Assembly (NCBI GenBank): GCA_003218475.1
Contig: QHNR01000111.1
Location: 1-43,348, forward strand
Origin: Verrucomicrobiota bacterium
GTDB lineage: Bacteria > Verrucomicrobiota > Verrucomicrobiia > Chthoniobacterales > UBA10450
Reading direction: 5' to 3'
Length of the DNA stretch: 43,348 bases
In this document: piece by piece, positions 2,567-28,959 of the stretch
Numbering within the stretch: the stretch's first letter is position 1
Layout of the letters: the number at the start of each line of letters is the position of its first letter
Position numbers and translations under genes: made by a program
Notes under the pieces: generated by a model
What the model saw: the letters and a program-made list of their open reading frames with translations, nothing else
Databases searched by the model: none
Told to the model about the DNA's origin: nothing

Positions 2567-4230
2567 TGCCCGCCATTCTCACTCTATTGCGGATCAAGAA
2601 TCTCGCGCTCGTGGAAGAACTTCAGTGGCAGATGGGGCCGGGGTTCATCGCTGTCACTGGTGAAACCGGCGCGGGGAAATCGATCATCATTGGGGCGCTG
2701 CAACTCTTGCTCGGCGAGCGCGCGGATAAATCGCTGATCCGCGCCGGGGCTGATCTCTGCACGGTTGAGGCGGTTTTTAGCGGAACCGATCTACAAAATC
2801 TCAACCCGCAACTTGTCGAAGCTGGAGTCGAGCCGTGCGAGAACGATCTCATCCTAAAGCGCACGCTCTCCTCAACCGGAACTAATCGGCAGTTCATTAA
2901 CGGCTCACCAACGACATTATCGATTCTGAAAAACCTGGGCGATGAACTCGTCGATCTTCACGGGTCGCACGATCACCAATCATTGCTCTCGCCGGAGACA
3001 CAATTGAGCTTGCTTGATTCGTTCGCGCACGCCGAAGAGCAACTCGATGGATATCGAAAGCATCATCGGCAGCTACAGACGCTACTGGCGGAGCATGCCG
3101 CGCTCGACACCGCGGAAACAGCACGCGAACAGGAGCTGGATCTGCTTCGTCATCAGATCACCGAAATCAAGTCAGCGAACCTGGTCGCAGACGAAGAACA
3201 GGAAATCGAGAAGCGGTATAAACTTACCAGCAACAGCAAACGGCTGATCGAGCTCGCCAGCGCAATCGTCAACAAACTTTCCGAAACCGATAATTCCGTC
3301 CTTTCGCAGCTCGCGGAAACTCAGCGGCTACTTCGCGAACTGGAAAGGATCGATGGCTCAATTGGGCAATTTTCATCGGCTCATGCCGCGAGTGTCGTTG
3401 AGCTTTCGGAAATCGCCCGCGCGCTTTCCGCGTATGCCGAAAAACTCGATCTCGACCCACAACAACTCGCTGCGCTCGAGCAACGCGTCTCGCTTTTTGA
3501 AACGTTGAAACGCAAATATGGCGGCTCAATCGCCGAAGTAATCGCGTTCGGCGAGCGCGCGACGGAACGGATGCGGAAAATTGAAGGACGAGATATGGAG
3601 TTGGAACGTCTGGCCAAAGAAATCGAGAATGTTCGCGCGCAAATGAATCGCGCCGGTGAAGCACTGCGCAAACTGCGAGTAAAAGCTGCTCCGAAACTTT
3701 CCGAAAACATCCGGCGCAACTTACGCGACCTCGGTTTCCGACAATCCGAATTCGAAGCAAAACTCAGCGCGCTCGAGGAGCCACGCCCGAATGGATTCGA
3801 CTCGGCGGAATTGCTCTTCTCGCCGAATCCAGGCGAGCCGCTGAGACCGCTTCGCGCCATCGCATCCAGCGGCGAAATCTCGCGGTTGATGCTGGCGATC
3901 AAATCAGCGCTGGCGGCACAAGACGCGATTCCCCTGCTCGTGTTCGATGAAATCGACACAAACGTTGGCGGCGAAATCGCGCACGCGGTGGGCGCGAAAA
4001 TGCGAACATTAGGACGCGATCATCAGGTGATTTGCATCACCCATTTGCCTCAAGTGGCTGCGACTGCCTCTTCACATTTCGTCGTGACGAAGGATGTCGC
4101 ACGCGGCCGCACGTTCTCTGATTTGCATGAAGTCACCGGCAAAGCGCGCCAGGAAGAAATCGCGCGGATGCTCGGCGGCAAAAGCGAATCGGCACTCAAG
4201 CTCGCAGCGAACCTCTTAAAACAAGAGTAA
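2566..4230 (+). CDS. recN: DNA repair protein RecN
   Basis: SMC-like ATPase of recombinational double-strand break repair. Residues 1-50 hold the N-terminal ATPase half with Walker A GETGAGKS. A His-rich turn DLHGSHDHQSLL follows, which is conserved in RecN. The middle ~300 residues are Glu/Leu/Arg-rich and of coiled-coil character. The C-terminal half has the ABC signature-like SSGEISRLMLAIKSAL, Walker B LLVFDEIDTNVGG and the switch region ICITHLPQVAA. The 554 aa length is normal. The ATG at 2566 is the only good start. It lies head to head with the hydrolase, so both promoters must sit in or near the repeat-rich gap. Confidence 0.97.
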   Translation: MPAILTLLRIKNLALVEELQWQMGPGFIAVTGETGAGKSIIIGALQLLLGERADKSLIRAGADLCTVEAVFSGTDLQNLNPQLVEAGVEPCENDLILKRTLSSTGTNRQFINGSPTTLSILKNLGDELVDLHGSHDHQSLLSPETQLSLLDSFAHAEEQLDGYRKHHRQLQTLLAEHAALDTAETAREQELDLLRHQITEIKSANLVADEEQEIEKRYKLTSNSKRLIELASAIVNKLSETDNSVLSQLAETQRLLRELERIDGSIGQFSSAHAASVVELSEIARALSAYAEKLDLDPQQLAALEQRVSLFETLKRKYGGSIAEVIAFGERATERMRKIEGRDMELERLAKEIENVRAQMNRAGEALRKLRVKAAPKLSENIRRNLRDLGFRQSEFEAKLSALEEPRPNGFDSAELLFSPNPGEPLRPLRAIASSGEISRLMLAIKSALAAQDAIPLLVFDEIDTNVGGEIAHAVGAKMRTLGRDHQVICITHLPQVAATASSHFVVTKDVARGRTFSDLHEVTGKARQEEIARMLGGKSESALKLAANLLKQE

Positions 4231-5013: not shown

Positions 5014-6195
5014 ATGATTAGACGTGATTATCTCATCATTGGTGCCGGCATTGCCGGAGCAAGCGCATGCGAAGGAATTCGCAAATACGACAAACGCGGC
5101 TCCGTGACACTGGTTGGCGCTGAAGTTTTTCCCCCTTACAAGCGGTGGATACTTTCGAAGACCTTTTTGCGCGAAAAGGACCCTAATCTCAAGAAATTGC
5201 AGGAACCCGACGAGCGCTGGTTCGAAACGCACAAGATCGAGACCCGGTTCGCTACAGCCGTAACACAATTCAACATCGAGCGGCGTTTGGCCGTGCTTGC
5301 CAACGGGGAAACTATTGAATTCAACAAAGCATGCCTGGCGATGGGCAGCCGCCCGGTGCGACCACCCGTGGCCGGGGTTAATCTCGGCAACGTTATTTAC
5401 CTGCGAACGGTCCGCGACGCCCTCGCTTTGAAAGAGATGGCAAGCGTGGAGCGAGGCATCATGGTCGTGGGCGGCGGACTACTTGCATGCGAGGCGGCAG
5501 CGAGTCTGCGAATGATGAAACTGAAGATCGGTCTGATGCATCGTGATCCGTACTTGTTGAACCGCTATCTGGATCCTGAAACCGGAGCATGGCTGACTGA
5601 TCACTTTGCCAAACACAGCGTGGTTCTCTCGATGGGCGAAAGTCTCAACGGCTTCGAAGGCAAAACCGTTTTGCGCAATATCCAGACAAAAAGCGGCAAC
5701 CGCTTCCCAGTCGGTCTCGCTGTGGTTGCGTGCGGCGCAGAACCGAATCTTCACCTGGTCCGCAACACGCCACTATCGGGACCGCACGGCTCCCCTGTCA
5801 CTGAATATCTCGAGACAGAAGAAAAGGGAATTTACGCCGTTGGCGACCTGGCATTTTATCCGGACCGGATCATGGGTGGTGTGCGGCGTCAGACACACTG
5901 GGAAAACGCGCGCGAACAGGGCCTCGTTGCCGGCGCGAACATGACAGGTAAAAAGCGGATTCGCTATGAGCAGGTTCCCTGTTTTTGGACAGAGATGTTC
6001 GATTTGCGGATGGATTTTGTCGGCGATTTCAGTGTCTTGCCGACCCGTGTCGACCTTCAAGGCGCCTATGCAAAGAAAAAGTTTATCGCCCGCTATTATC
6101 AAGGAGACAAACTGCGGGCCATTCTGCTTTGCCAGCAAGCGCAACGTGACGTGGATTCTGCCAAGACGCAGTTGCGCCAAGCGCTGGGGAAATAA
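5014..6195 (+). CDS. FAD-dependent NAD(P)H oxidoreductase (ferredoxin-reductase type)
   Basis: Pyridine nucleotide-disulfide reductase fold of 393 aa. The N-terminal FAD dinucleotide motif is IGAGIAGASA, the NAD(P) motif is VVGGGLLACEAA near residue 152, and the second FAD contact is KGIYAVGDLAF near residue 270. The conserved YKRWILSKTFL region matches AIF- or rhodocoxin-reductase-like enzymes, and a C-terminal domain of Reductase_C type appears to follow. It probably passes electrons from NAD(P)H to a small redox protein, but no partner ferredoxin or oxygenase lies in the window. No active-site CxxxxC is visible, which argues against a disulfide reductase. Confidence 0.88.
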   Translation: MIRRDYLIIGAGIAGASACEGIRKYDKRGSVTLVGAEVFPPYKRWILSKTFLREKDPNLKKLQEPDERWFETHKIETRFATAVTQFNIERRLAVLANGETIEFNKACLAMGSRPVRPPVAGVNLGNVIYLRTVRDALALKEMASVERGIMVVGGGLLACEAAASLRMMKLKIGLMHRDPYLLNRYLDPETGAWLTDHFAKHSVVLSMGESLNGFEGKTVLRNIQTKSGNRFPVGLAVVACGAEPNLHLVRNTPLSGPHGSPVTEYLETEEKGIYAVGDLAFYPDRIMGGVRRQTHWENAREQGLVAGANMTGKKRIRYEQVPCFWTEMFDLRMDFVGDFSVLPTRVDLQGAYAKKKFIARYYQGDKLRAILLCQQAQRDVDSAKTQLRQALGK

Positions 6196-6210
6196 AAGCG
6201 TTCCAACGGA

Positions 6211-9876: not shown

Positions 9877-10244
9877 ATGAACAACATAGGAAATTCTTCC
9901 GGGCGCAAGCGAAAGATCGTCATGTCTGAGAATCTGTTGCAGTGGCTTGCGCCTTATCGCTTGAAGTCCGGTCCGATCTTCGACATCGATCCGCGCAAGC
10001 GAATTGCCAAAGTCGTGAAGGCGTCCCGTGTGAAGTGGAAGCGGAACGGTCTGCGTCACAGTTTCGGCAGCTACCGCATGAGCAAATGAAGAACGAAGGA
10101 CAGGTGGCGCTGGAAATGGGCAACTCCCCGAAAGTTCTGAAAGATCATTACTTCGAGGTTGTCGATGAACGCGCGGCGCGCGAGTACTGGTCAATCAAAC
10201 CACTGCCGACTGACGACCGGAAGATTGTTGCTATCGCATCGTAG
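9877..10244 (+). pseudogene. Tyrosine recombinase (integrase), C-terminal remnant
   Basis: Only the C-terminal catalytic third remains. The first frame (from 9877) carries FDIDPRKRIAKVVKAS and the box-II-like GLRHSFGSYRMSK, then stops at 10087. The next frame continues with NEGQVALEMGNSPKVLKDHY, which holds the late His and the nucleophile-type Tyr. One missing base near 10086 would join the two. No N-terminal arm-binding or core-binding part is seen: the sequence starts within ~15 bp of the tRNA fragment, so the 5' part was lost at the island edge. It can no longer make an active enzyme. Confidence 0.8.
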
Positions 10245-10332: not shown

Positions 10333-10521
10333 TTAACTTTCCTTTGTTGGGTTTGTTGTTTGTGTCGTGTCAGTGGCACCGAACAGCAATTGACGCCCGC
10401 CCTTGACGTCCTGTTTCGGAATCAGGTCATCTAGGCGAATCAATTTACCTTTTTTGCGCTTAGGCCTTTGATTTCCTGATTCTCCCGTGTGCGCATTCTC
10501 TTTGCTCTTCGGTGCACTCAC
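10333..10521 (-). CDS. Small basic ORF with DLxPxxDVKGG motif
   Basis: 62 aa. A Lys/Arg-rich N-terminal half is followed by IRLDDLIPKQDVKGG and a 20-residue Thr/Ser-rich tail. The same motif appears in the ORFs at 12138 and 19341. It resembles a leader ending in a double glycine, as in many secreted or modified peptide precursors, but no C39 peptidase, transporter or modifying enzyme lies in the window. Function unknown. It lies downstream of the DUF5681 gene on the same strand. Confidence 0.55.
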   Translation of the reverse strand: MSAPKSKENAHTGESGNQRPKRKKGKLIRLDDLIPKQDVKGGRQLLFGATDTTQTTNPTKES

Positions 10522-10643
10522 CTGGGCTTCTTGTCTTTCGAGGGATGGAACCTGCTGCTGAGGATTCCTTAATGATCGGCTGCCGACGGTCTCGCGGTTG
10601 CCATAACGTCATGCAGTAGTCATGAAAACATCATGGATGTGGG

Positions 10644-11147
10644 TTAAGCATGGGTAGAACACTGGAGTGGGTATCGACTGTACCTAACGCGTTTTGATGC
10701 GCTGGTGGGTTCAGGACAGCGCCCGGCCGTTGTCCAAACGCTTTGGAAGCGCAGGCATTCGTGGTCAGGTCTCTCGTAGTCAGGCGCTTCATGTCCGTAA
10801 TGCAAAATCAACTTGGTTCGGGGTTGTTCAAGAGTCGCGTCGAGCCTGTCAGGTGGTCGGCCATACGCATATGCAACGAATTCGCGTTGCTTCATCACGT
10901 CTGTGCTCTCTGACCATTGACGGAATATGCGCTCAATTCTCGACATCGTTTCGCCGTGGGCGTCGCTGACCATTTCGCACGAGATTTGTTGCGCCAATTT
11001 ACGAACCTCATCAAATCCACGTGGGCGCCCACTGACGTTTCTCCTTATATCGCCGCCTGTGCTGAACGGTCGCAGATTCGCCCAGCTATTCGGGTGGCTT
11101 CCGCGCCCCTTCCTCAGGTTTTTCTCAGTGTCCTGCGAATCATCCAC
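10644..11147 (-). CDS. DUF5681-like protein
   Basis: 167 aa. The N-terminal NLRPFSTGGDIRRNVSGRPRG is the DUF5681 signature (a Gly/Arg-rich opening common in phage and integrated-element genes). A helical middle follows with SRIERIFRQWSES and FVAYAYGRPPD. The last ~35 residues are rich in Arg, Ser and Thr and may be read past a decayed stop. The family is often found with phage packaging or mobile genes, which fits the position near the integrase remnant. Its molecular role is not known. Confidence 0.65.
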   Translation of the reverse strand: MDDSQDTEKNLRKGRGSHPNSWANLRPFSTGGDIRRNVSGRPRGFDEVRKLAQQISCEMVSDAHGETMSRIERIFRQWSESTDVMKQREFVAYAYGRPPDRLDATLEQPRTKLILHYGHEAPDYERPDHECLRFQSVWTTAGRCPEPTSASKRVRYSRYPLQCSTHA

Positions 11148-11194
11148 TATGAGACGTTATGACACGCGCGATAAAGTGTGTCAAAATTCGGCCG

Positions 11195-11371
11195 CGTGAA
11201 GTACTGGAAAATCATCGCTGACAATCTCAACAGTCTCAATGAGGCGCGATTATGAAAATTCATGTAAGCTTAGCGCGCCCCCCGACAAGATGCCCATTCA
11301 GATTAAGAAAGAGATCGAGCTCGAAATCGCGCACGTCCTCTTCATCGACATTGTCGGCTACTCCAAGCTGC
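11195..11371 (+). pseudogene. Relic: 5' end of a third cyclase gene with its upstream region
   Basis: Bases 11195-11290 match the upstream region of the cyclase at 13548. This includes the GTACTGG..ATCATCGCTGACAA block, itself the 5' end of a small-gene family. Bases 11290-11371 match its first ~27 codons (PIQIKKEIELEIAHVLFIDI, then GYSKL). The similarity then stops and the frame continues into unrelated sequence. This shows that a third cyclase gene or partial copy once lay here. Confidence 0.8.
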
Positions 11372-11504
11372 ATCAAGAAACGCGGTTGGAGCTTGGGTTT
11401 ATGTCTCAACCCCGGATTCTCGCGGGCGAACGATCGTCGTGCCGACGCGCATAGCGGCGAACCGGTAAGCGCACGCGGGCGAGCGGCAACGATACTTTAG
11501 TACC

Positions 11505-12056
11505 GTGAAAACATTCTTTTCGATCGTTCTCGCCGTCGCCGTCTCCCTCGGCACTGTCCAAGCGGGACACGGCGGACATGGCGGACACGGCGGACGCAGC
11601 GGATATCATGGCGGACGCGGCGGACATTTTAGCTCGATATCGCCGCGAGGCGGACACAAGTTCAGCCGAAGTGCGCCGAAATTCAGTCGTGGCACATCGG
11701 GAACATATCGAAATTGGGGTGGCCGCAAATGGAGCGGTGGTAAATGGAGCGCCGGTAAATGGGGCGGCCGCAAATGGGGCGGCGGTGGTAAATGGAGCAG
11801 CGGCAGCTGGGGCGGCGGTAGTTGGGATTGGTACCCCTCTGGGGGCTGGGGCATTCCTTACGCACTTAACTACGGCTATTATTCTTATGGGTATTACCCT
11901 TGGTATAGGTACGGACTTGGTTATCCATTCTACTGGGGTTGGGGCATTCCTTACGTGTACGCGTACTACAGCTTTTATCCTTACTGGTACTATCCTTCGT
12001 ATCGGTACGCTTATGATTATTACAATTGCTCCGTATCAAGAAGGCGATTCTTTTGA
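11505..12056 (+). CDS. Secreted Gly/His/Tyr-rich low-complexity protein
   Basis: 183 aa with a clear signal peptide (MKTFFSIVLAVAVSLGTVQA). The mature part has three zones: GHGGHGG repeats, a Trp/Gly/Lys stretch with WGGRKWSGGKW, and an aromatic tail rich in Tyr, Trp and Pro. It ends SRRRFF. No fold or enzyme motif is visible. The composition suggests a structural or matrix protein outside the cell; His-rich repeats could bind metal. Frames on both strands give long shadow ORFs because of the repetitive G+C-rich codons. Confidence 0.75.
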   Translation: MKTFFSIVLAVAVSLGTVQAGHGGHGGHGGRSGYHGGRGGHFSSISPRGGHKFSRSAPKFSRGTSGTYRNWGGRKWSGGKWSAGKWGGRKWGGGGKWSSGSWGGGSWDWYPSGGWGIPYALNYGYYSYGYYPWYRYGLGYPFYWGWGIPYVYAYYSFYPYWYYPSYRYAYDYYNCSVSRRRFF

Positions 12057-12059
12057 AAC

Positions 12060-12126
12060 CTGACTCCTTGAAATCGCCCGCATGCTCGTGCGTCTCGATC
12101 ACGTTGCCCGCGTCGTCGTAAATTCG
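12060..12126 (-). repeat. Decayed copy of the VIRVYD small-gene 3' module
   Basis: On the minus strand it reads IYDDAGNVIETHEHAGDFKE, the C-terminal module of the small-protein family whose best copy is at 25380-25634. The upstream half of the family is missing here. It lies directly downstream of the Gly/Tyr-rich gene. Confidence 0.75.
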
Positions 12127-12137
12127 TATCTGCCGAA

Positions 12138-12326
12138 TTAGTGGCTGCCTATCGTGCCTGTGCCGCCCGTGATGGGTTTGGATTCGCCCGTAACACCGCC
12201 GCCACCTTTGACGTCTTTTTCTGGCTCCAGGTCACGAATTTCCAAGTCACGAATTTTGGCCTTCTTAAGTCGGCGCCAAACCGAGCGGACTACAACGATA
12301 TTCGGCGATCGGTCCTCCATAACCAA
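12138..12326 (-). CDS. Short ORF with DLEPEKDVKGG leader-like motif, copy A
   Basis: 62 aa. The segment KIRDLEIRDLEPEKDVKGG contains a tandem 5-residue repeat (IRDLE) from a duplicated 15 bp unit. A Gly/Thr/Ser-rich tail GVTGESKPITGGTGTIGSH follows. Copy B at 19341 is identical through GVTGESK, then has a different tail ending in DH. The upstream ~25 codons may not be translated: the first Met is in doubt. The layout resembles a double-glycine leader plus variable core peptide. No biosynthetic partner is seen. Confidence 0.5.
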   Translation of the reverse strand: MVMEDRSPNIVVVRSVWRRLKKAKIRDLEIRDLEPEKDVKGGGGVTGESKPITGGTGTIGSH

Positions 12327-12719
12327 CTATTAGTAGGAACGTTTGCTTTAGGATGTTCAACTGACACATTACTCGCAAGCGTCTTGATCGTCCACCACGC
12401 TTTGAAATCGCCCGCGTGACCGTACGTCTCAATCACGTTGCCCGATTCATCATACACGCGAATCACAGCGCGATGTGAAGTGGCAGCGGCTGCGAGCACT
12501 CTATGGTGTCGGAGAGGCGGTTATTGAATGTGAGCCGTGCTGAAGAAGTGGACACCGCGCCAGGGGAGTCCCCGTAACCTTGGCCTCGCAGTCGCTCAAC
12601 TATCAGTGCCGATTGGAATCCTAATTGCGTTTGGCCCACCGTACCACAGCCGACCGAATGGCAGCGCATCGGAAATCAGATCGACGCCGTGATGATCTTT
12701 GCGCGGGCGGACTTCGTAA
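12138..12719. repeat. Duplicated block, copy A
   Basis: Bases 12177-12480 match 19386-19689 at a constant offset of 7209 with very few mismatches. Bases 12481-12719 match 19769-20007 at offset 7288. The 79 bp at 19690-19768 are absent here. The block holds the DVKGG ORF, a diverged VIRVYD module, a GC-rich spacer and the YEVRPRKD module. The last of these forms the C-terminus of the secreted protein at 12596. Confidence 0.9.
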
Positions 12720-13396
12720 ACGTGTTGTGGGCTAGTCATCACAACGGCCAGCGATTGGTGCCCTGTATCAAACAGCAGCAGACCGGTTACGCGCACTAAC
12801 AGTTTCCCAATTGGATTCTTCTTACTAGGTTTCTTCCAACTAGCGTCGATCAAAGGGTTCAACTCATCTCTAGCGAAGTTCGGGTGGCCATCAAGGCGAA
12901 CACGCGGAGTAAATTCTGCCGTCACGGAATGACGCTCGTCTTTCGCCAACGTGCGATGCTTTATCCTGGGATCAACCAACACGATATGGTTATCCGTGTT
13001 CGCTGGGTCAGTAAGCTCGCAATTTGCGCTTTCGCGGCTTCCTATTCTGGCTGTGAGTGCCCAGGCGACGACCGTGACTTTTTGGCCTTCGCCTAACTGT
13101 TTCAATTCGTCGCGACTTCCATACTGAGTGAGATTCGTTGGATGATGTGGCAGATCTTTCATCCATTGAATGCTTCGCAGGACCGATTGTTCATCGTCCG
13201 ACCGGATATTCTTTCGCTTGTTTAGTTCTGGATCACAGGGGTGATCTGGGTCGGGCGGGCCGCACCCTTCATCCGGGCAGTGGGCAACGTCCGCAATGCC
13301 TTTCGGACAGGGTCTGTCCGGGCAGGGCTGCTGCGGGTTAGCAGGTGCACAGAAAACAAACAACGAGAGAAAAAGTATTGGGAGGATTCGTTTCAT
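12596..13396 (-). CDS. Secreted hypothetical protein with repeat-derived C-terminus
   Basis: 266 aa with a signal peptide (MKRILPILFLSLFVFCAPAN). A Pro/Cys-rich segment (CPDRPCPKG, CPDEGCGPP) follows, then a beta-type domain of about 120 residues with DNHIVLVDP, VTAEFTPRVRLDGHP and LLVRVTGLLLFD. The domain pattern recalls secreted proteins of unknown role found in soil bacteria. The last ~40 residues (YEVRPRKDHHGVDLISDALP onward) lie in the duplicated block and equal the N-terminal module of the small-protein family at 25380 and 28831. The C-terminus was therefore acquired from, or shares origin with, that family. Confidence 0.7.
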   Translation of the reverse strand: MKRILPILFLSLFVFCAPANPQQPCPDRPCPKGIADVAHCPDEGCGPPDPDHPCDPELNKRKNIRSDDEQSVLRSIQWMKDLPHHPTNLTQYGSRDELKQLGEGQKVTVVAWALTARIGSRESANCELTDPANTDNHIVLVDPRIKHRTLAKDERHSVTAEFTPRVRLDGHPNFARDELNPLIDASWKKPSKKNPIGKLLVRVTGLLLFDTGHQSLAVVMTSPQHVYEVRPRKDHHGVDLISDALPFGRLWYGGPNAIRIPIGTDS

Positions 13397-13454
13397 AGCT
13401 GGTTCATATCACTTTGTCATTGCCGTGTGGAGATCAATGAGGCAAAATCCCCCG

Positions 13455-13513
13455 CGTAAAGTACTGGGAAATCATCGCTGACAAGCTCAACAGCCTGAAT
13501 GAGGCGCAATTAT
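13455..13513 (+). pseudogene. 5' fragment of the WEIIADNL small gene
   Basis: It reads KYWEIIADKLNSLNEAQL then stop. This matches the first codons of the small gene at 18330 and the similar fragment at 11198. It lies 35 bp before the cyclase start, so it may now serve as leader or promoter-proximal sequence. Confidence 0.65.
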
Positions 13514-13547
13514 GAAATTCACGTAATCTTAGGGCCCCCCGGACAAG

Positions 13548-15920
13548 ATGCCCATTCAGATCAAGAACGAGATCCAGCTCGAAATCGCCCATGTCTTGTT
13601 CATAGACATTGTAGGCTACTCGAAGCTTTCGATTAGCGACCAGCACGCGGCGGTTGAAGAGCTAACCCGGATTGTTCGCGCGTCGGAACAGTTTCAACGA
13701 GCCGAAGCCGCGAGCCGTTTGACCAGGATCCCAACCGGCGACGGGATGGCGCTGGCATTTTACACGACTCCGGAAGCGCCTGCGCAATGCGCGGTGGAGA
13801 TCAGCCGCGCTCTCAAGGAACATCCGCGTCTGCAACTTCGGATGGGAATCCACAGCGGGCTAGTTGGCGGGGTGGTCGATGTAAACGAACGGGCCAATCT
13901 CGCGGGCGCTGGCCTTAACGTGGCGCAGCGAGTGATGGATTGCGGCGACGCCGGGCACATTCTTCTATCCAAACACGTCGCTGAAGATCTGGAAGAATAC
14001 CAGAGGTGGCGACCGTTCCTGCACGATCTTGGTTCGTGCGAAGTGAACCACGGGGTGCGCGTCTCGGTCGTGAACCTCTATGACGATCAATTCGGCAATG
14101 CGAAGCTGCCGCAGAGATTTGAGACGGCGCAGAAACGCCGGAAGCGTCTGCGCTGGGCGACAATCGCAGCAGCGTTGCTTGCGCTCTCGGCAATTGTCGC
14201 GGGTGCGGTAGTATTTTCCCGTAATCGCGAGCGATCGACGCTGGCAGCGCCGGAGAAAAGCATCGCTGTTCTCCCATTCGGAAACCTGAGCCGCGATGCT
14301 GAGAACGCTTACTTTGCCGAAGGTATCCAGGACGAAATCCTGACGCGTTTATCCAAGATCGCCGACTTGAAGGTCATCTCGCGCACGTCCACACAACATT
14401 ACAAAAGCGCGCCGGAAAACCTGCGTGAGATCGCAAAGCAACTTGGTGTCGCTCACATCCTGGAAGGAAGTGTGCAGAAGAGCGGCGACGCAGTGCGCGT
14501 AAACGTGCAGCTAATCAAAGCAGCGAATGATTCCCATCTTTGGGCCGATACGTTTGATCGCAAATTGACCGATATCTTTTCGGTCGAGAGTGAGGTCGCC
14601 AAATCGATTGCTGAGCAGCTACAGGCGAAACTTACTGGCCAGGAAGAGCAAATCATCGGTGCCAAACCAACAGATAATCCTGAAGCTTACGATGCCTACC
14701 TGCGTGGGCTGGCTTATACCCTAAAGACTGTCGACACACCCGCCAATGCCCTCGCCGCGCAGAAATATCTCAAAGAAGCAGTGCGGTTGGATCCGAAGTT
14801 CGCCCTTGCCTGGGCGCACCTCTCAATCGTTGATTCGCGCAACTACCGCCAACAGAGTCTTCAGCCAACGGTCGCCCTCCGTGAAGAGGCGCGGCAAGCC
14901 GCCGAAACCGCCCTCACTCTTCAGCCCAATCTCGGCGAGGCCGTATTGGCGAAGGGATCCTACTACTACTTTTGTCTGAAAGATTATGACACAGCAGTGC
15001 GTTACTTTGAACAAGCACGTCAACTCCTACCGAATAGCAGCAGAATTCCAGAATCGCTGGCCTATTTGGAGCGGAGGCGAGGCCAGTGGGACAGGAGCGA
15101 GTCGTACTTCAACGAAGCCGAGAAGCTTGACCCGCGCAACCTTCACCTACTCACGCAGCACGCGGTTACCTATATCTCTCGTCGTCGTTTCCCAGAAGCG
15201 CTGCAGAAACTTGACCAGGTTCTGAATATCACACCGGACGACGTGGATGCTCTCGCGCTAAAGGCGCTTATCGCACAAGCCGAGGGTGATCTGCCACGTG
15301 CTGCTGCACTACTCGCTCCGCTGCATCCGAACGCCGACAACCCCGACGCCTTGGGAACACAAGTGTACCAAGCGATCTTGGAGCGCCGCCCTGCACCGGT
15401 CATCCCTCGGCTAAAGGAAATACTCGCCAAGCCCGATCCAGCGTTGGGTTATAGCAATGGCGAGCTGCGCTTTTTTTTAGGCTGGGCGCAGGAAGTCGCC
15501 GGCGACCTTGCCGCCGCCCAGGAAAGTTGGCGACAAGCGCGCAGCGAACTGGAACCTCTCCTCAAAGAACAGCCGGAAAATTATTACCTGATTGGAGATC
15601 TCGCGCTCTTCAATATGGGTCTCGGTGACAAAGCCGCCGCGTTGGCTCTGTCGGAGCGGGCCATGGCCGCGAATCCGATCGAGAAAGACCCCTCGACTGG
15701 TCCTTGGTCGCTCGAGATCCTCGCCCGGGTGGCGGCGCAGATGGGGGAGCCCGACCGCGCCATCGCCGCTTTACAGAAACTACTTTCGATACCGTACGCC
15801 GGCTCAATGAGTACAATCATGCCGCTCACTCCAGCGCTGCTCCGGCTCGATCCAATGTTCGATCCGCTCCGGAGTGACCCGCGTTTTCAGAAACTCGCCG
15901 CGTCGCCCGCGCTGAAATGA
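13548..15920 (+). CDS. Class III cyclase / TolB-like / TPR sensor protein, copy 1
   Basis: 790 aa. Residues 10-190 form a class III adenylate/guanylate cyclase domain with metal Asp20 (FIDIVGYSKL) and Asp65 (PTGDGMAL), plus Asn124 and Arg128 in GLNVAQRVM. The usual substrate-selecting residues are changed (R or I before PTGDG, G before LN), so the product, or activity at all, is uncertain. A membrane helix lies at 201-225. Residues 235-360 hold a TolB-like domain (KSIAVLPFGNLS, AHILEGSVQKSGDAVRVNVQ), and the rest is TPR repeats. The layout suggests an inner-membrane protein with a cytoplasmic cyclase and extracytoplasmic sensing part. It overlaps the next cyclase by 4 bp. Confidence 0.92.
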   Translation: MPIQIKNEIQLEIAHVLFIDIVGYSKLSISDQHAAVEELTRIVRASEQFQRAEAASRLTRIPTGDGMALAFYTTPEAPAQCAVEISRALKEHPRLQLRMGIHSGLVGGVVDVNERANLAGAGLNVAQRVMDCGDAGHILLSKHVAEDLEEYQRWRPFLHDLGSCEVNHGVRVSVVNLYDDQFGNAKLPQRFETAQKRRKRLRWATIAAALLALSAIVAGAVVFSRNRERSTLAAPEKSIAVLPFGNLSRDAENAYFAEGIQDEILTRLSKIADLKVISRTSTQHYKSAPENLREIAKQLGVAHILEGSVQKSGDAVRVNVQLIKAANDSHLWADTFDRKLTDIFSVESEVAKSIAEQLQAKLTGQEEQIIGAKPTDNPEAYDAYLRGLAYTLKTVDTPANALAAQKYLKEAVRLDPKFALAWAHLSIVDSRNYRQQSLQPTVALREEARQAAETALTLQPNLGEAVLAKGSYYYFCLKDYDTAVRYFEQARQLLPNSSRIPESLAYLERRRGQWDRSESYFNEAEKLDPRNLHLLTQHAVTYISRRRFPEALQKLDQVLNITPDDVDALALKALIAQAEGDLPRAAALLAPLHPNADNPDALGTQVYQAILERRPAPVIPRLKEILAKPDPALGYSNGELRFFLGWAQEVAGDLAAAQESWRQARSELEPLLKEQPENYYLIGDLALFNMGLGDKAAALALSERAMAANPIEKDPSTGPWSLEILARVAAQMGEPDRAIAALQKLLSIPYAGSMSTIMPLTPALLRLDPMFDPLRSDPRFQKLAASPALK

Positions 15921-18283
15921 ACATGCCCGCCGAAATTAAGAAAGAGATCGCGCTTGAAATCGCCCATGTCCTGTTCATCGACATTGTTGGCTACTCGAAG
16001 CTTTCGATTAGCGACCAGCACGCGGCGGTTGAAGAGCTAACCCGGATTGTTCGCGCGTCCGAGCAATTTCAACGAGCTGAAGCCGCGAGCCGTTTGACCA
16101 GGATCCCAACCGGCGACGGAATGGCGCTGGCATTTTACACGAGTCCGGAAGCGCCTGCGCAATGCGCCGTGGAGATCAGCCGCGCTCTCAAGGAACATCC
16201 GCGTCTACAACTTCGGATGGGAATCCACAGCGGGCTAGTTGGCGGGGTGCTCGATGTAAACGAACGGGCCAATCTCGCGGGCGCTGGCCTTAACACGGCG
16301 CAGCGAGTGATGGATTGCGGCGACGCCGGGCACATTCTTCTATCCAAACACGTCGCTGAAGATCTGGAAGAATACGAGAAGTGGCAACCGTTCCTGCACG
16401 ATCTTGGTTCGTGCGAAGTGAAGCATGGCGTGCGCGTCTCGGTCGTGAACCTCTATGACGATCAATTCGGCAATGCGAAGCTGCCGCAGAGATTTGAGAC
16501 CGCGCAGAAACGGCGGGTGCGTCTGCGCTGGGCGACAATCGCGGCAGCGTTGCTTGCGCTCGCGGCAATTGTCGCGGGTGGCGTAATATTTTCCCGTAAT
16601 CGCGAGCGATCGACGCTGGCTGCTCCGGAGAAAAGTATTGCCGTGCTTCCATTTGAAAATCTGAGCGAAGACAAAGCCAACGCCTACTTTGCCATGGGCA
16701 TTCAAGATGAAATTCTGACGCGCCTATCCAAGATCGCTGATCTCAAAGTCATCTCGCGTACTTCCACACAACATTACAAAAGCGCGCCGGAAAATCTGCC
16801 GGAGATTGCCAGGCAACTTGGCGTGGCTCACATTCTGGAAGGTAGCGTGCAAAAAAGCGGTGATGCGGTGCGCGTGAATGTGCAGTTGATCAAAGCAGCT
16901 AACGATTCCCATCTTTGGGCCGATACCTTTGATCGTAAACTGACGGACATCTTTTCTGTCGAGAGTGAGGTGGCCAAAGCTATTGCGGACCAGCTTCAAG
17001 CCAACATTTCCCCGACTGAAAAGGCGGCGATTGAGAAAGCCCCGACAACCGATCTTGTCGCATACGACCTTTACCAGCACGCCCAGGCGCTGGTCGCCGA
17101 TACATCCGATGCTATCCATGCAAGGGAGAAGCTGCCTCAGGCAGCACAGCTGCTCAATGAAGCGCTCGCGCGGGATCCGAACTTTTTACAGGCTTGGTGC
17201 CTGCTCTCCAGAGTGCATAGTGTTGCGTACTTTAGGGGCCATGATCACACGCCGGCCCGTCTCGAGCTGGCCAAGACCGCGCTGGATCGCGCTATACGCC
17301 TCCAACCAGACGCGGGTGAAATCCACCTTGCATCGGCGAATTACTACTACCAGGGCTTTCGCGACTACGAGCGCGCCCGCAGCGAACTGGCTATTGCCAG
17401 AAAGACGCTGCCGAACAATGCTGATGCATTCCTGTACACGGGCCTGATCGACCGACGCGAAGGCCACTGGGAAGAAGCAACTCGCAACATGGAGCGCGCT
17501 CTTGAGCTGGACCCGCGCAACTACTTCATTCTCCAGCAACTCGCTTTCGCTTACGGATGGCAGCATCGCTACGCCGAAGCAGCCCGAATCTATGATCGAG
17601 CACTGACGATCGTGCCGGCGGATCCGAATACTCGCATACAGCAGGCGCTGGTTGCGTTGGATTGGCAGGCTGACATCAAACCCTTTCAGACTACCCTGGC
17701 CGGTTTGATGGCTGAAGATCCCAGTATGGCGCTCGATATAGATACGCTCCTGTATTCTTTCTGCGATCGGGCGTGGGCTGCCGCGACCTGGGTCCTGACA
17801 AACTATCCGCGTGAGGGCGCCGCAAATAATGGTGTCAACTATCCGTATGCATATTGGCAGGGCGTCCTTGCTCGCTCCCAGGGTGATTCACGCACAGCGC
17901 GGGTCGCCTTTGCCGCTGCACGCAGAGAAGTCCAAAAGATAGTGGACCAGCAGCCCAATTTCGCGGCTGCTATTAGTCTGTTGGGAATGATCGACGCCGG
18001 TCTCGACAAAAAAGAAGAGGCCCTAAAGGAGGGTCAACGCGCGTGTGAATTGCTGCCCATTTCCAAAGACGCTATCGACGGTGCATCCCTGGCCATGAAT
18101 CTGGCGCAGATCTACACTTGGCTCGGTGATAAAGATCGCGCCATCGAACAGATCGCGACGCTGGAACGCATCCCGAACCCCCTCAGCTATGGTCTTCTCA
18201 AACTGCACCCTTACTGGGACTCACTGCGTGGCGATCCGCGCTTCGAGAAAATCGTTGCCTCGCTCGCGCCGAAAGAACGGTAA
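15917..18283 (+). CDS. Class III cyclase / TolB-like / TPR sensor protein, copy 2
   Basis: 788 aa with the same domain order as copy 1, and a 4 bp start overlap with it. From 15989 to 16620 the DNA is almost identical to 13614-14245 at a constant offset of 2375 without indels. Past the membrane helix it diverges quickly, with many synonymous changes in the TolB-like part. The TPR part is different in sequence. Catalytic-type residues D, D, N and R are kept (GLNTAQRVM). The C-terminus WDSLRGDPRFEKIVASL mirrors copy 1's LRSDPRFQKLAAS. The pair is probably co-transcribed and could give one signal output with two different inputs. Confidence 0.92.
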   Translation: MNMPAEIKKEIALEIAHVLFIDIVGYSKLSISDQHAAVEELTRIVRASEQFQRAEAASRLTRIPTGDGMALAFYTSPEAPAQCAVEISRALKEHPRLQLRMGIHSGLVGGVLDVNERANLAGAGLNTAQRVMDCGDAGHILLSKHVAEDLEEYEKWQPFLHDLGSCEVKHGVRVSVVNLYDDQFGNAKLPQRFETAQKRRVRLRWATIAAALLALAAIVAGGVIFSRNRERSTLAAPEKSIAVLPFENLSEDKANAYFAMGIQDEILTRLSKIADLKVISRTSTQHYKSAPENLPEIARQLGVAHILEGSVQKSGDAVRVNVQLIKAANDSHLWADTFDRKLTDIFSVESEVAKAIADQLQANISPTEKAAIEKAPTTDLVAYDLYQHAQALVADTSDAIHAREKLPQAAQLLNEALARDPNFLQAWCLLSRVHSVAYFRGHDHTPARLELAKTALDRAIRLQPDAGEIHLASANYYYQGFRDYERARSELAIARKTLPNNADAFLYTGLIDRREGHWEEATRNMERALELDPRNYFILQQLAFAYGWQHRYAEAARIYDRALTIVPADPNTRIQQALVALDWQADIKPFQTTLAGLMAEDPSMALDIDTLLYSFCDRAWAAATWVLTNYPREGAANNGVNYPYAYWQGVLARSQGDSRTARVAFAAARREVQKIVDQQPNFAAAISLLGMIDAGLDKKEEALKEGQRACELLPISKDAIDGASLAMNLAQIYTWLGDKDRAIEQIATLERIPNPLSYGLLKLHPYWDSLRGDPRFEKIVASLAPKER

Positions 18284-18329
18284 AGCTCACCATGCTGTTC
18301 TACGAAAAGGAGCCACGCTCGTCGATAAC

Positions 18330-18538
18330 ATGAAAGATTGGGAGATCATCGCTGACAATCTCAGCAAAGCCGATTGGGGCTGTATTTCAGCGATTGAGTC
18401 CAATGGACGAACGATCTGGATTGCGGACGCACATCGCGACGATGGAAAGCGCGTTTCGTTGTGCGTGCGGATGAAAAGTTGAGGGCGTTCGTGGAACTGG
18501 AATCGGCGATTAGGACCGGACGTGAGCCTGTGGCTTGA
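18330..18538 (+). pseudogene. WEIIADNL small-gene family, frameshifted copy
   Basis: It reads MKDWEIIADNLSKADWGCIS, then TIWIADAHRDDGKR. An extra CG near 18450 shifts the frame, so the intact version would continue FVVRADEKLRAFVELESAIR to the TGA at 18536. The current frame stops early (50 aa). Other family pieces lie at 11198, 13455 and 24465. The family is a short soluble protein of unknown function that I have seen as a recurring hypothetical in soil Verrucomicrobiota; no motif gives a role. Confidence 0.7.
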
Positions 18539-18589
18539 CTGGTGGCTTGCGTTTCAACGCGGTTTCAGTCAGCAGCGGAAGATTGCGGA

Positions 18590-18992
18590 AAGTCTGCGAT
18601 TTATTTGCTTGCGCACCAAGCCCTGCGCCAAGCGGCGCTGGGGGGATTGGCTACTGGCCAATCATCCAGAGGCGTGGTGCTTGGTAAGCATTACGCTTGG
18701 TTGTCAGAGCTGCACTGAGGCTCAGGTCATTGCGATCATGCAAAATCCCACGCGCGGGGACATGACTTACCAGCTCGCCGCGCAATTGGCTGCGGCGAAG
18801 CTAAACGTCGCCTGTAATCTTACGGACTTGAGCTGTGTCGCCAGTGCCATCGCGGCCGCTGACGCCTGGCTGTGCTCGCATCCAATAGGCAGCAACGTCA
18901 GGGCCCATAGCCAGGCGTGGAAAGAGATCACGCCGACCTACAACACGCTAGCTGATTACAATAACGGCCTGCTTTGTGCGCGGCCGCGTTGA
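18590..18992 (+). pseudogene. NHPEAW-family secreted protein relic
   Basis: The frame ending at 18992 reads ANHPEAW, then ALGCQ-like and AAQLAAAKLNVACN, AIAAADAWLC and DYNNGLL. This is the pattern of a secreted family that normally carries GYWKNHPEAW. In the frame before it the DNA reads GAGGIGYW directly upstream. One missing base near 18660 would join GYW to NHPEAW. No signal peptide or start is clear. The family's function is unknown; members often sit in surface or Pro/Thr-rich proteins. Confidence 0.6.
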
Positions 18993-19042
18993 CTCTCACC
19001 ACAGGGGCGATAGACTGCGCAGGCAAACAGCAGCCATATTTC

Positions 19043-19088
19043 ACAAATCAGCCGTCATGTTTAATCACGTGGCGCCTCTTGTTTCGCT
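19043..19088 (+). repeat. Decayed copy of the terminator-like repeat
   Basis: AATCAGCCGTCATGTTTAAT resembles the hairpin region at 21653, which is likewise followed by a VIRVYD module on the opposite strand. The two form part of one larger repeated unit. Confidence 0.45.
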
Positions 19089-19096
19089 TGTCACGC

Positions 19097-19285
19097 TCAC
19101 CACTCCTTGAAATCGCCCGCGTGCTCGTGCGTTTCAATCACGGTACCCGCTGCATCGTAAACCCGAATCACAGCATCATGTGAGCGACTGCGAAACTTCG
19201 CATAGTCGATTGCGTTGCTGACTGCGTTTGGCTCGCCGTACCACAGCCGACCGAATGGCAACGCATCGGAAAGTAGATCGGTAGT
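19097..19285 (-). pseudogene. VIRVYD small-protein family, 5'-truncated copy
   Basis: On the minus strand it reads SDALPFGRLWYGEPNAVSNA, IDYAKFRSRSH and VIRVYDAAGTVIETHEHAGD, ending FKEW and a stop. It lacks the YEVRPRKD N-terminus: the similarity ends at 19285. The frame is otherwise intact over ~60 codons, which suggests recent truncation. Confidence 0.7.
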
Positions 19286-19340
19286 GTCCTAATTTGAATT
19301 ACGATTTCGCGTACCGAACGATGGCGCGATTTTATCCTTA

Positions 19341-19535
19341 TTAGTGGTCGCCTGTAGCGCGCGTGGTGCCATTGCCTGTGGTGGATTTGGATTCGCCCGT
19401 AACACCGCCGCCACCTTTGACGTCTTTTTCTGGCTCCAGGTCACGAATTTCCAAGTCACGAATTTTGGCCTTCTTAAGTCGGCGCCAAACCGAGCGGACT
19501 ACAACGATATTCGGCGATCGGTCCTCCATAACCAA
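19341..19535 (-). CDS. Short ORF with DLEPEKDVKGG leader-like motif, copy B
   Basis: 64 aa, identical to the ORF at 12138 through KDVKGGGGVTGESK. The tail then differs: STTGNGTTRATGDH against PITGGTGTIGSH. The stop codon and the His before it are shared. The surrounding ~300 bp are almost identical between the copies, so the change is concentrated after the double glycine. This is expected for a leader/core peptide, but an edge effect of the duplication is also possible. Confidence 0.5.
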   Translation of the reverse strand: MVMEDRSPNIVVVRSVWRRLKKAKIRDLEIRDLEPEKDVKGGGGVTGESKSTTGNGTTRATGDH

Positions 19536-20010
19536 CTATTAGTAGGAACGTTTGCTTTAGGATGTTCAACTGACACATTACTCGCAAGCGTCTTGATCGT
19601 CCACCACGCTTTGAAATCGCCCGCGTGACCGTGCGTCTCAATCACGTTGCCCGATTCATCGTACACGCGAATCACAGCGCGATGTGAAGCCGCATCCTGC
19701 ACATCATTTAGGCGTCGGGGAATCTTTTTTTGCGTGGACAAAATCGACGATTCTGGGTTAAAGTTCTTTGGCAGCGGCTGCGAGCACTCTATGGTGTCGG
19801 AGAGGCGGTTATTGAATGTGGGCCGTGCTGAAGAAGTGGACACCGCGCCAGGGGAGTCCCCGTAACCTTGGCCTCGCAGTCGCTCAACTATCAGTGCCGA
19901 TTGGAGTCCTAATTGCGTTTGGCTCGCCGTACCAGAGCCGACCGAATGGCAGCGCATCGGAAATCAGATCGACGCCGCGGCGATCTTTGCGTGGGCGGAC
20001 TTCATAAGTC
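19341..20010. repeat. Duplicated block, copy B
   Basis: Second copy of the block at 12138-12719. It carries 79 extra bases (19690-19768) between the VIRVYD module and the GC-rich spacer. Here the YEVRPRKD module is not attached to a long secreted protein, but starts from ATG-like sequence near 20020. The copies therefore share the block but not the gene context. Confidence 0.9.
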
Positions 20011-21696: not shown

Positions 21697-21783
21697 ACGG
21701 CTCTTTGAACTCACCCGCGTGCTCGTGCGTTTCGATCACGTTGTCCGCTTCATCGTAAACGCGAATCACAGCATCATGTGATC
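21697..21783 (-). repeat. VIRVYD 3' module fused after the RHH-like gene
   Basis: On the minus strand it reads HDAVIRVYDEADNVIETHEH, AGEFKEP and a stop. It begins exactly at the stop of the gene at 21774, so only the 3' module is present. The joint falls at the same point (HDAV) where other copies have RSRSHDAV. Confidence 0.75.
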
Positions 21784-25379: not shown

Positions 25380-25634
25380 TCACCGCTCCTTGAACTCGCC
25401 CGCGTGCTCGTGCGTCTCGATCGCATTGCCCGCGTCATCGTAAACGCGAATCACAGCATCGTGTGAGCGACTGTGAAACTTGGCGTAGTCGATTGCGCTC
25501 GCGACTGCGTTTGGCTCGCCGTACCAAAGCCCGCCGAATGGCAGCGCATCGGAAATCAGATCGACCCCACGATGATCTTTGCGCGGGTGGACCGGGGTCG
25601 GATAAAGAAACGAGCCAATGAGCGCCTCAATCAA
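25380..25634 (-). CDS. VIRVYD small-protein family, best full-length copy
   Basis: 84 aa with a TTG start. It reads HPRKDHRGVDLISDALPFGG, then LWYGEPNAVASAIDYAKFHS, RSHDAVIRVYDDAGNAIETH and ends EHAGEFKER. Only this copy joins the N-terminal and C-terminal modules without a gap. I do not recognise a described domain; the IRVYDxAGNVIETHEH segment looks like a beta hairpin. Partial or decayed copies lie at 12060, 12398, 12596, 19097, 19610, 19905, 21697, 23651 and 28831. Confidence 0.6.
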   Translation of the reverse strand: MIEALIGSFLYPTPVHPRKDHRGVDLISDALPFGGLWYGEPNAVASAIDYAKFHSRSHDAVIRVYDDAGNAIETHEHAGEFKER

Positions 25635-28830: not shown

Positions 28831-28959
28831 TTAGGCGTTGGTGACTGCGTCTGGCTCGCCGTACCAAAGCCTGCCGAATGGCAGCGCATCGGAAATTAGA
28901 TCGACGCCGCGATGGTCTTTGCGCGGTCGGACTTCGTAGGTATGGCGTGCTTCCAACAT
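28831..28959 (-). CDS. VIRVYD small-protein family, N-terminal module only
   Basis: 42 aa ORF with ATG start at 28959: MLEARHTYEVRPRKDHRGVD, then SNALPFGRLWYGEPDAVTNA and a TAA. It shows the family's natural N-terminus. The C-terminal module is absent, replaced by a stop right after NA. It is too short for the ORF track. It may be a truncated relic. Confidence 0.5.
   Translation of the reverse strand: MLEARHTYEVRPRKDHRGVDLISDALPFGRLWYGEPDAVTNA

Follow-up and report, generated by a model that had tools for sequence, protein, structure and literature searches.

Among the closest systems known are the bacteriocin clusters of cyanobacterial groups I and II (Wang, Fewer and Sivonen 2011, PMC3140520), in which the double-glycine leader follows the consensus M(R/K)ELx3E(I/L)x2(I/V)xG(G/A), and the EbfG/PteB system of Synechococcus elongatus, whose products function in biofilm formation (PMC4997328). 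The leaders known to be recognised by C39 peptidases carry hydrophobic residues at positions -4, -7 and -12 (PMC6363468). Here we analyse a stretch of 43,348 nucleotides from a Verrucomicrobiota bacterium (contig QHNR01000111.1, assembly GCA_003218475.1; hereafter the window), in which three short open reading frames (ORFs) on the minus strand, at 10333, 12138 and 19341, carry the motif D-L-x-P-x-x-D-V-K-G-G. With a probability of about 0.8, judged from the sequences and their genomic context, we read these ORFs as orphan precursors of an undescribed family of double-glycine-leader peptides that would be exported in trans by the C39 exporter encoded on another contig of the same genome, C67.

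An earlier note on this DNA had picked out the three ORFs, and they lie where it placed them, with DLIPKQDVKGG in ORF 10333-10521 and DLEPEKDVKGG in ORFs 12138-12326 and 19341-19535; the pattern D[LI].P..D[VA].GG occurs three times in the six-frame translation of the window and in none of 150 first-order Markov windows with the same nearest-neighbour make-up. The note had also called their tails unlike, which holds between ORF 10333 and the other two and fails for 12138 against 19341. The latter are copies from a recent duplication (12137-12480 matching 19340-19689 at 95.4%, and 12481-12719 matching 19769-20007 at 95.8%), and their shared tail, GGVTGESKPxTGGTGTxGSH, recurs in three more paralogues of the genome and in other genomes. 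ORF 10333 belongs to a separate subtype with its own conserved segment after the Gly-Gly (GG), and its nearest relative is another off-operon copy (G004:C16, 92% over 268 bp). For ORFs 12138 and 19341 translation probably does not begin at the TTG listed; we prefer the ATG two codons downstream (12320 and 19529), where the sequence agrees with the M...PNIxVVRSVWRR with which homologues begin. ORF 10333 is a type-A precursor away from the exporter and the other two are type C, in the classification given below; dN/dS in the following lines is the ratio of nonsynonymous to synonymous substitution rates.

10333..10521, minus strand: orphan type-A precursor ORF, GTG start, VSAPKSKENAHTGESGNQRPKRKKGKLIRLDDLIPKQDVKGG / RQLLFGATDTTQTTNPTKES; homologous to the single type-A gene of exporter operons
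10396..10521, minus strand: putative type-A leader, ending in Gly-Gly, as GG retention suggests; predicted cut after 10396
10336..10395, minus strand: putative type-A exported part, RQLLFGATDTTQTTNPTKES; F-G invariant in alignment A2, dN/dS after the GG 0.50
12138..12320, minus strand: type-C precursor ORF from the likely ATG, MEDRSPNIVVVRSVWRRLKKAKIRDLEIRDLEPEKDVKGG / GGVTGESKPITGGTGTIGSH
19341..19529, minus strand: type-C precursor ORF, duplicate of 12138 in a 95% identical block, ...DLEPEKDVKGG / GGVTGESKSTTGNGTTRATGDH

The window holds no processing enzyme, as the earlier note had observed, and the sole C39-peptidase domain detected in the genome (3.16 Mb, 83% complete) is on C67, in an ABC exporter with two paralogues of the window ORFs downstream; contigs C49, C94 and C140 hold one further paralogue each. 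We ran a profile of the eight paralogues over 147 related genomes, together with the C39 family; 150 leader matches were listed, and the counts drawn from them are lower bounds. Leader matches were found in at least 52 of the 147 genomes. Among the 150 matches listed, 63 share a contig with a strong C39 exporter, 62 lie within 10 kb of it and 59 follow the exporter on its own strand at a distance of 3.4-6.1 kb (4.5-5.0 kb in most cases), and at least 30 of 48 exporter contigs contain a leader ORF. By genome, again among the leader matches listed, 42 have both components, 10 the leader only, five the exporter only and 90 neither, a co-occurrence with a Fisher p of about 1e-21, uncorrected for relatedness. 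In four of the leader-only genomes (G061, G026, G011 and G037) a sigma-54 gene, joined in two of them by part of HlyD, stands upstream and runs into the contig end, so that the absence of the exporter looks like an assembly gap by which the operon was cut off.

Clustering of the ORFs over 28 loci returned a foldase-like protein, the exporter, an HlyD protein and a sigma-54 activator, each in 25-26 loci; the other clustered families appear to be antisense frames of operon genes or neighbours common to fewer loci. The order is foldase-like gene, exporter with two cNMP (cyclic nucleotide) domains, HlyD, sigma-54 activator, and then one type-A and one to five type-B precursor genes. This context, with both the paralogues and the leaders of relatives downstream of the exporter, supports the earlier note's idea of double-glycine-leader peptides served by a C39 exporter; the idea was right in substance, and it applies to an entire type of operon. 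In the window's genome the operon (locus L018, G000:C67) reads as follows.

C67 13682-14593, minus strand: foldase-like gene
C67 10572-14006, minus strand: C39 exporter (extent of the ORF as called; translation probably starts further inside)
C67 9372-10562, minus strand: HlyD-like gene
C67 8353-9357, minus strand: sigma-54 activator gene
C67 7098-8294, minus strand: S-adenosylmethionine (SAM) methyltransferase gene, between the sigma-54 gene and the precursors
C67 6647-6871, minus strand: type-A ORF
C67 6523-6690, minus strand: type-B ORF

The exporter comprises two cNMP_binding stretches followed by Peptidase_C39, ABC_membrane and ABC_tran domains, and in an alignment of its C39 domain to solved ones (6mpz, 4ry2 and others) the catalytic Cys, His and Asp are in place, which makes it a plausible candidate for cleavage and export. 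The general features of double-glycine peptides, that is, a short ORF, a conserved leader ending in GG and a variable C-terminal part, are all present; a C39-ABC exporter with these three residues lies near the precursors in the family, not near the window copies. Two further observations concern the C67 locus. On the opposite strand beside the precursors (6028-6210, plus) a further short ORF contains a stretch resembling the leader, KLKLNKQTQRDQTLRGQKVDSVKGGF, and two ORFs near the operon (2141-2437 and 2768-3274, plus) read by eye like transposases associated with repetitive extragenic palindromes (REP, Y1).

The precursors fall into three types. Type A, with the consensus VSxPKxKKNAPAGES...KLIRLDDLIPKxxVxGG and then RQLLFGATDTT, is usually present once per genome and per exporter and occurs in 48 of 213 genomes of the order; one genome, G009, has two exporter loci (C136 and C82) with a type-A gene at each. 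Type B, found as one to five genes per operon, combines a conserved leader, M...KKxIKVRDLKPxKDAKGG, with a hypervariable, repeat-like core some 8-45 residues long, in which units such as GGSSLDK or GHTGH are often repeated. Type C, M...PNIxVVRSxWRRxKK...RDLxPxKDVKGG followed by GGVxGESKPTTGGTGTTGSH, is usually dispersed away from the exporter operon. The earlier note had named two grounds for abandoning its idea, a dN/dS near 1 and a motif lying always inside longer, unrelated proteins. We found purifying selection on the frame, with a dN/dS of 0.28 for type A (bootstrap 0.20-0.38) and 0.60 for type C (0.41-0.89; P(>=1) 0.006), the shifted frames of the latter giving 0.86 and 1.29, and the motif sits in short ORFs next to the exporter. 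In both types constraint is stronger on the leader than on the tail.

The peptide family belongs to Udaeobacter-like bacteria and related Chthoniobacterales. Over 84,980 GTDB species, type A was found at 46 loci, 45 of them in records labelled Verrucomicrobia, Chthoniobacterales, Spartobacteria or Udaeobacter, the remaining one being a marginal match in an Oscillospiraceae record; over 388 genomes of the phylum, the type B/C profile matched Chthoniobacterales alone, plus one marginal match. A plasmid search for type A gave no match, and spread on viruses was considered and set aside, as none of four pattern matches in viral contigs was confirmed. The earlier note's suggestion of an undescribed family stands: no Pfam or NCBIfam model scored above its curated cutoff for the window ORFs, the paralogues or alignments A2 and A3, and in the literature we found no paper with KDVKGG, KDAKGG or DLKPKKD and none on such systems in Verrucomicrobia.

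The leader is non-canonical, and this is the most specific of the new findings. Counted back from the second Gly, it has Asp at -5, Lys at -6, Leu at -10, Asp at -11, Val at -13 and Ile or Val at -15; position -8 is Pro in 25 of 25 sequences, -4 is Ala or Val in 22 and -12 is Arg in 16. The small or hydrophobic residue at -4 is thus that of canonical leaders, whereas Leu-12 and Leu/Ile-7 are missing: position -7 is mostly charged or polar, and hydrophobic residues stand at -10, -13 and -15 instead. It follows that the register must differ or that recognition uses other contacts. The same absence of the canonical residues, together with the strongly basic character of the leaders, would fit cytoplasmic regulators or nucleic-acid binders in which Gly-Gly is not a cleavage site. 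We regard this as very improbable given the fixed position downstream of a C39 exporter, among the leader matches listed, the hypervariable tails after the GG, and the retention of the GG in 35 of 39 type-A sequences whose collection did not depend on it (retention was judged on type A alone, the type-B alignment having been picked with a GG-containing pattern).

Several points weigh against export of the window ORFs by the C67 exporter. Canonical C39 substrates have Leu at -7 and -12, which this leader lacks, and LahT cleaves less well when one of these positions carries a charge (PMC6363468). The window copies are on another contig than the exporter, and it is homology that suggests its use in trans. 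Even on C67 the methyltransferase gene stands in between, which puts the precursors at 5.9-6.1 kb from the C39 domain. Some type-A copies have lost the GG or the frame, and the type-C tail is weakly constrained (dN/dS 0.80).

This last point also bears on the possibility that the operon peptides are real and the window orphans, type C especially, are relics carried along with a dispersed repeat, giving no functional product. The repeat is about 176 bp long and translates as ...LPFGRLWYGEPNA...DAVIRVYDAAGNVIETHEHAGDFKEW. At least 42 matches to it occur in the genome, those within one contig usually sharing an orientation, and it is also present in six of nine genomes tested; it can be read as part of a protein of about 75 residues ending in ETHEHAGDFKEW, with no Pfam or NCBIfam match. 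Its copies in the window are these.

12393..12478, minus strand: repeat fragment, 67 bp upstream of the first type-C ORF
19602..19687, minus strand: repeat fragment, 67 bp upstream of the second type-C ORF
19097..19272, minus strand: full repeat copy, 68 bp downstream of the second type-C ORF, used as query
25380-25555, 21701-21781, 28835-28895, 12610-12675 and 19898-19963, minus strand: further repeat copies

Of 20 off-operon precursor ORFs in five genomes with orphans, 9 have the repeat within 300 bp, against 0.12 expected by chance, and none of 13 operon copies does, so that many of the orphans tend to move, or come to rest, with the repeat. Duplication of a block within the window points the same way, as does the loss of the GG in one of the genome's own five type-C copies (DVKCG, contig C140). 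The association has exceptions: G024 is nearly without repeat copies and its orphans are not near one, and the copy nearest to ORF 10333 is 1.9 kb away. Against relics, the type-C frames stay open over many species under a coding-frame dN/dS unlike that of the shifted frames, and the orphan type-A copy keeps every conserved residue. We consider a loss of function less likely than not, and retain export in trans as the preferred reading.

Two other neighbours of the window ORFs were looked at and set aside. Beside the orphan type-A ORF (9942-10244, plus) lies a fragment that, judged by eye and without a Pfam match, resembles the C-terminus of a tyrosine recombinase (NEGQVALEMGNSPKVLKDHY); it was not seen near the other precursor copies searched. 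Between the two type-C ORFs (13548-15920 and 15917-18283, plus) stand tandem TPR proteins resembling class III adenylate/guanylate cyclases, a gene with about twelve close copies in the genome, another tandem pair on C130 and a short remnant at 11290-11376 of the window. A link to type C, considered because the exporter has cNMP domains, was dropped, as none of the about twelve copies was seen tied to other precursors.

The earlier note had left room for modified peptides, and here its idea found no backing: among the families of the 28 operon loci there is no tailoring enzyme conserved with the precursors. Ribosomally synthesized and post-translationally modified peptides (RiPPs), with a tailoring enzyme encoded elsewhere or with the C67 methyltransferase in that role, are suggested by the position of this enzyme between the sigma-54 gene and the precursors, by cores often rich in Ser, Thr and Gly, and by the first operon gene, which weakly matches TIGR04500, a peptide-maturation family resembling peptidyl-prolyl isomerases (PPIases; 46.9 bits, cutoff 180). 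We think this unlikely: the methyltransferase is confined to the window's genome among the loci compared and is not among the conserved operon families of relatives, the own operon has no LanM, YcaO, radical SAM or ATP-grasp gene and the others no further conserved family, and no Cys occurs in the exported parts of the aligned precursors (A2 and A3). The foldase-like protein itself has weak PPIase Pfam matches in a minority of its members, and its AlphaFold model (mean predicted local distance difference test score 90) matches SurA and PrsA in Foldseek, with E-values down to 1.4e-6 and low global template-modelling scores. None of 19 members has a hydrophobic N-terminus such as a signal peptide would provide, which is why we take it to be probably cytoplasmic.

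For the system as a whole, we infer that a short basic leader (...IKVRDLKPxKDAKGG or ...LIRLDDLIPKxDVxGG) would be read by the C39 domain of a single dedicated exporter, itself equipped with two cNMP domains, that this C39 domain would cut after the Gly-Gly, and that the remainder, 10-45 residues and often rich in Gly, Ser, Thr and His, would leave via the exporter and HlyD, with an outer-membrane channel supplied from elsewhere. The SurA/PrsA-like foldase, first in the operon and without signal peptide, may keep the precursors or hand them over. The sigma-54 activator probably controls the operon; upstream of the precursors in 21 clusters and of type-C genes we found no sigma-54 (-24/-12) promoter site by strict or relaxed consensus, which leaves their co-regulation by this activator without sequence support. 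The products are probably unmodified extracellular peptides that, by analogy, may serve matrix, contact or signalling functions. Type A would be the conserved component, normally one per exporter, and types B and C the variable repertoire, the window copies using the C67 exporter in trans. It is tempting to speculate, and we offer this as a tentative picture, that a single cyclic-nucleotide-sensing exporter serves in trans a fixed peptide, variable operon peptides and repeat-spread orphans by a leader code (hydrophobic -10/-13/-15, small -4, Pro-8) unlike the Leu-7/Leu-12 one.

Bacteria of the Udaeobacter type rank among the most common in soil. Little is known of their chemistry, which gains here a defined peptide-export system whose precursors can be listed genome by genome. 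The leader tests how far C39 recognition can vary, the precursors offer a case of orphan genes associated with a repeat, and a small protease domain with a handful of synthetic peptides would suffice for a direct test of processing.

Compared with known systems, the operon shares a C39 ABC exporter and HlyD with the RiPP export of NHLP/Nif11 type (TIGR03796, TIGR03794), from which it differs in scoring below the cutoffs (the best NCBIfam model for the exporter, TIGR03796, gives 541 bits against 853), in lacking a nitrile-hydratase-like or Nif11 leader and in that its genes include no second ABC subunit. The cyanobacterial group I/II clusters (PMC3140520) come closer, with a long-type C39 exporter bearing an N-terminal CAP_ED/cNMP region, a SurA-like rotamase, HlyD and short GG precursors. 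Here, however, the leader reads D-L-x-P-x-K-D-[AV]-K-G-G and departs from the cyanobacterial consensus, the operon includes a sigma-54 activator, the host phylum is another, and orphans stand beside a dispersed repeat, which we have not seen described for those groups. With EbfG1-4/PteB (PMC4997328) the system has in common small GG-motif proteins and a C39 exporter of HetC-like domain layout, whereas leader and core sequences are different and one conserved type-A peptide per operon is accompanied here by variable and dispersed ones.

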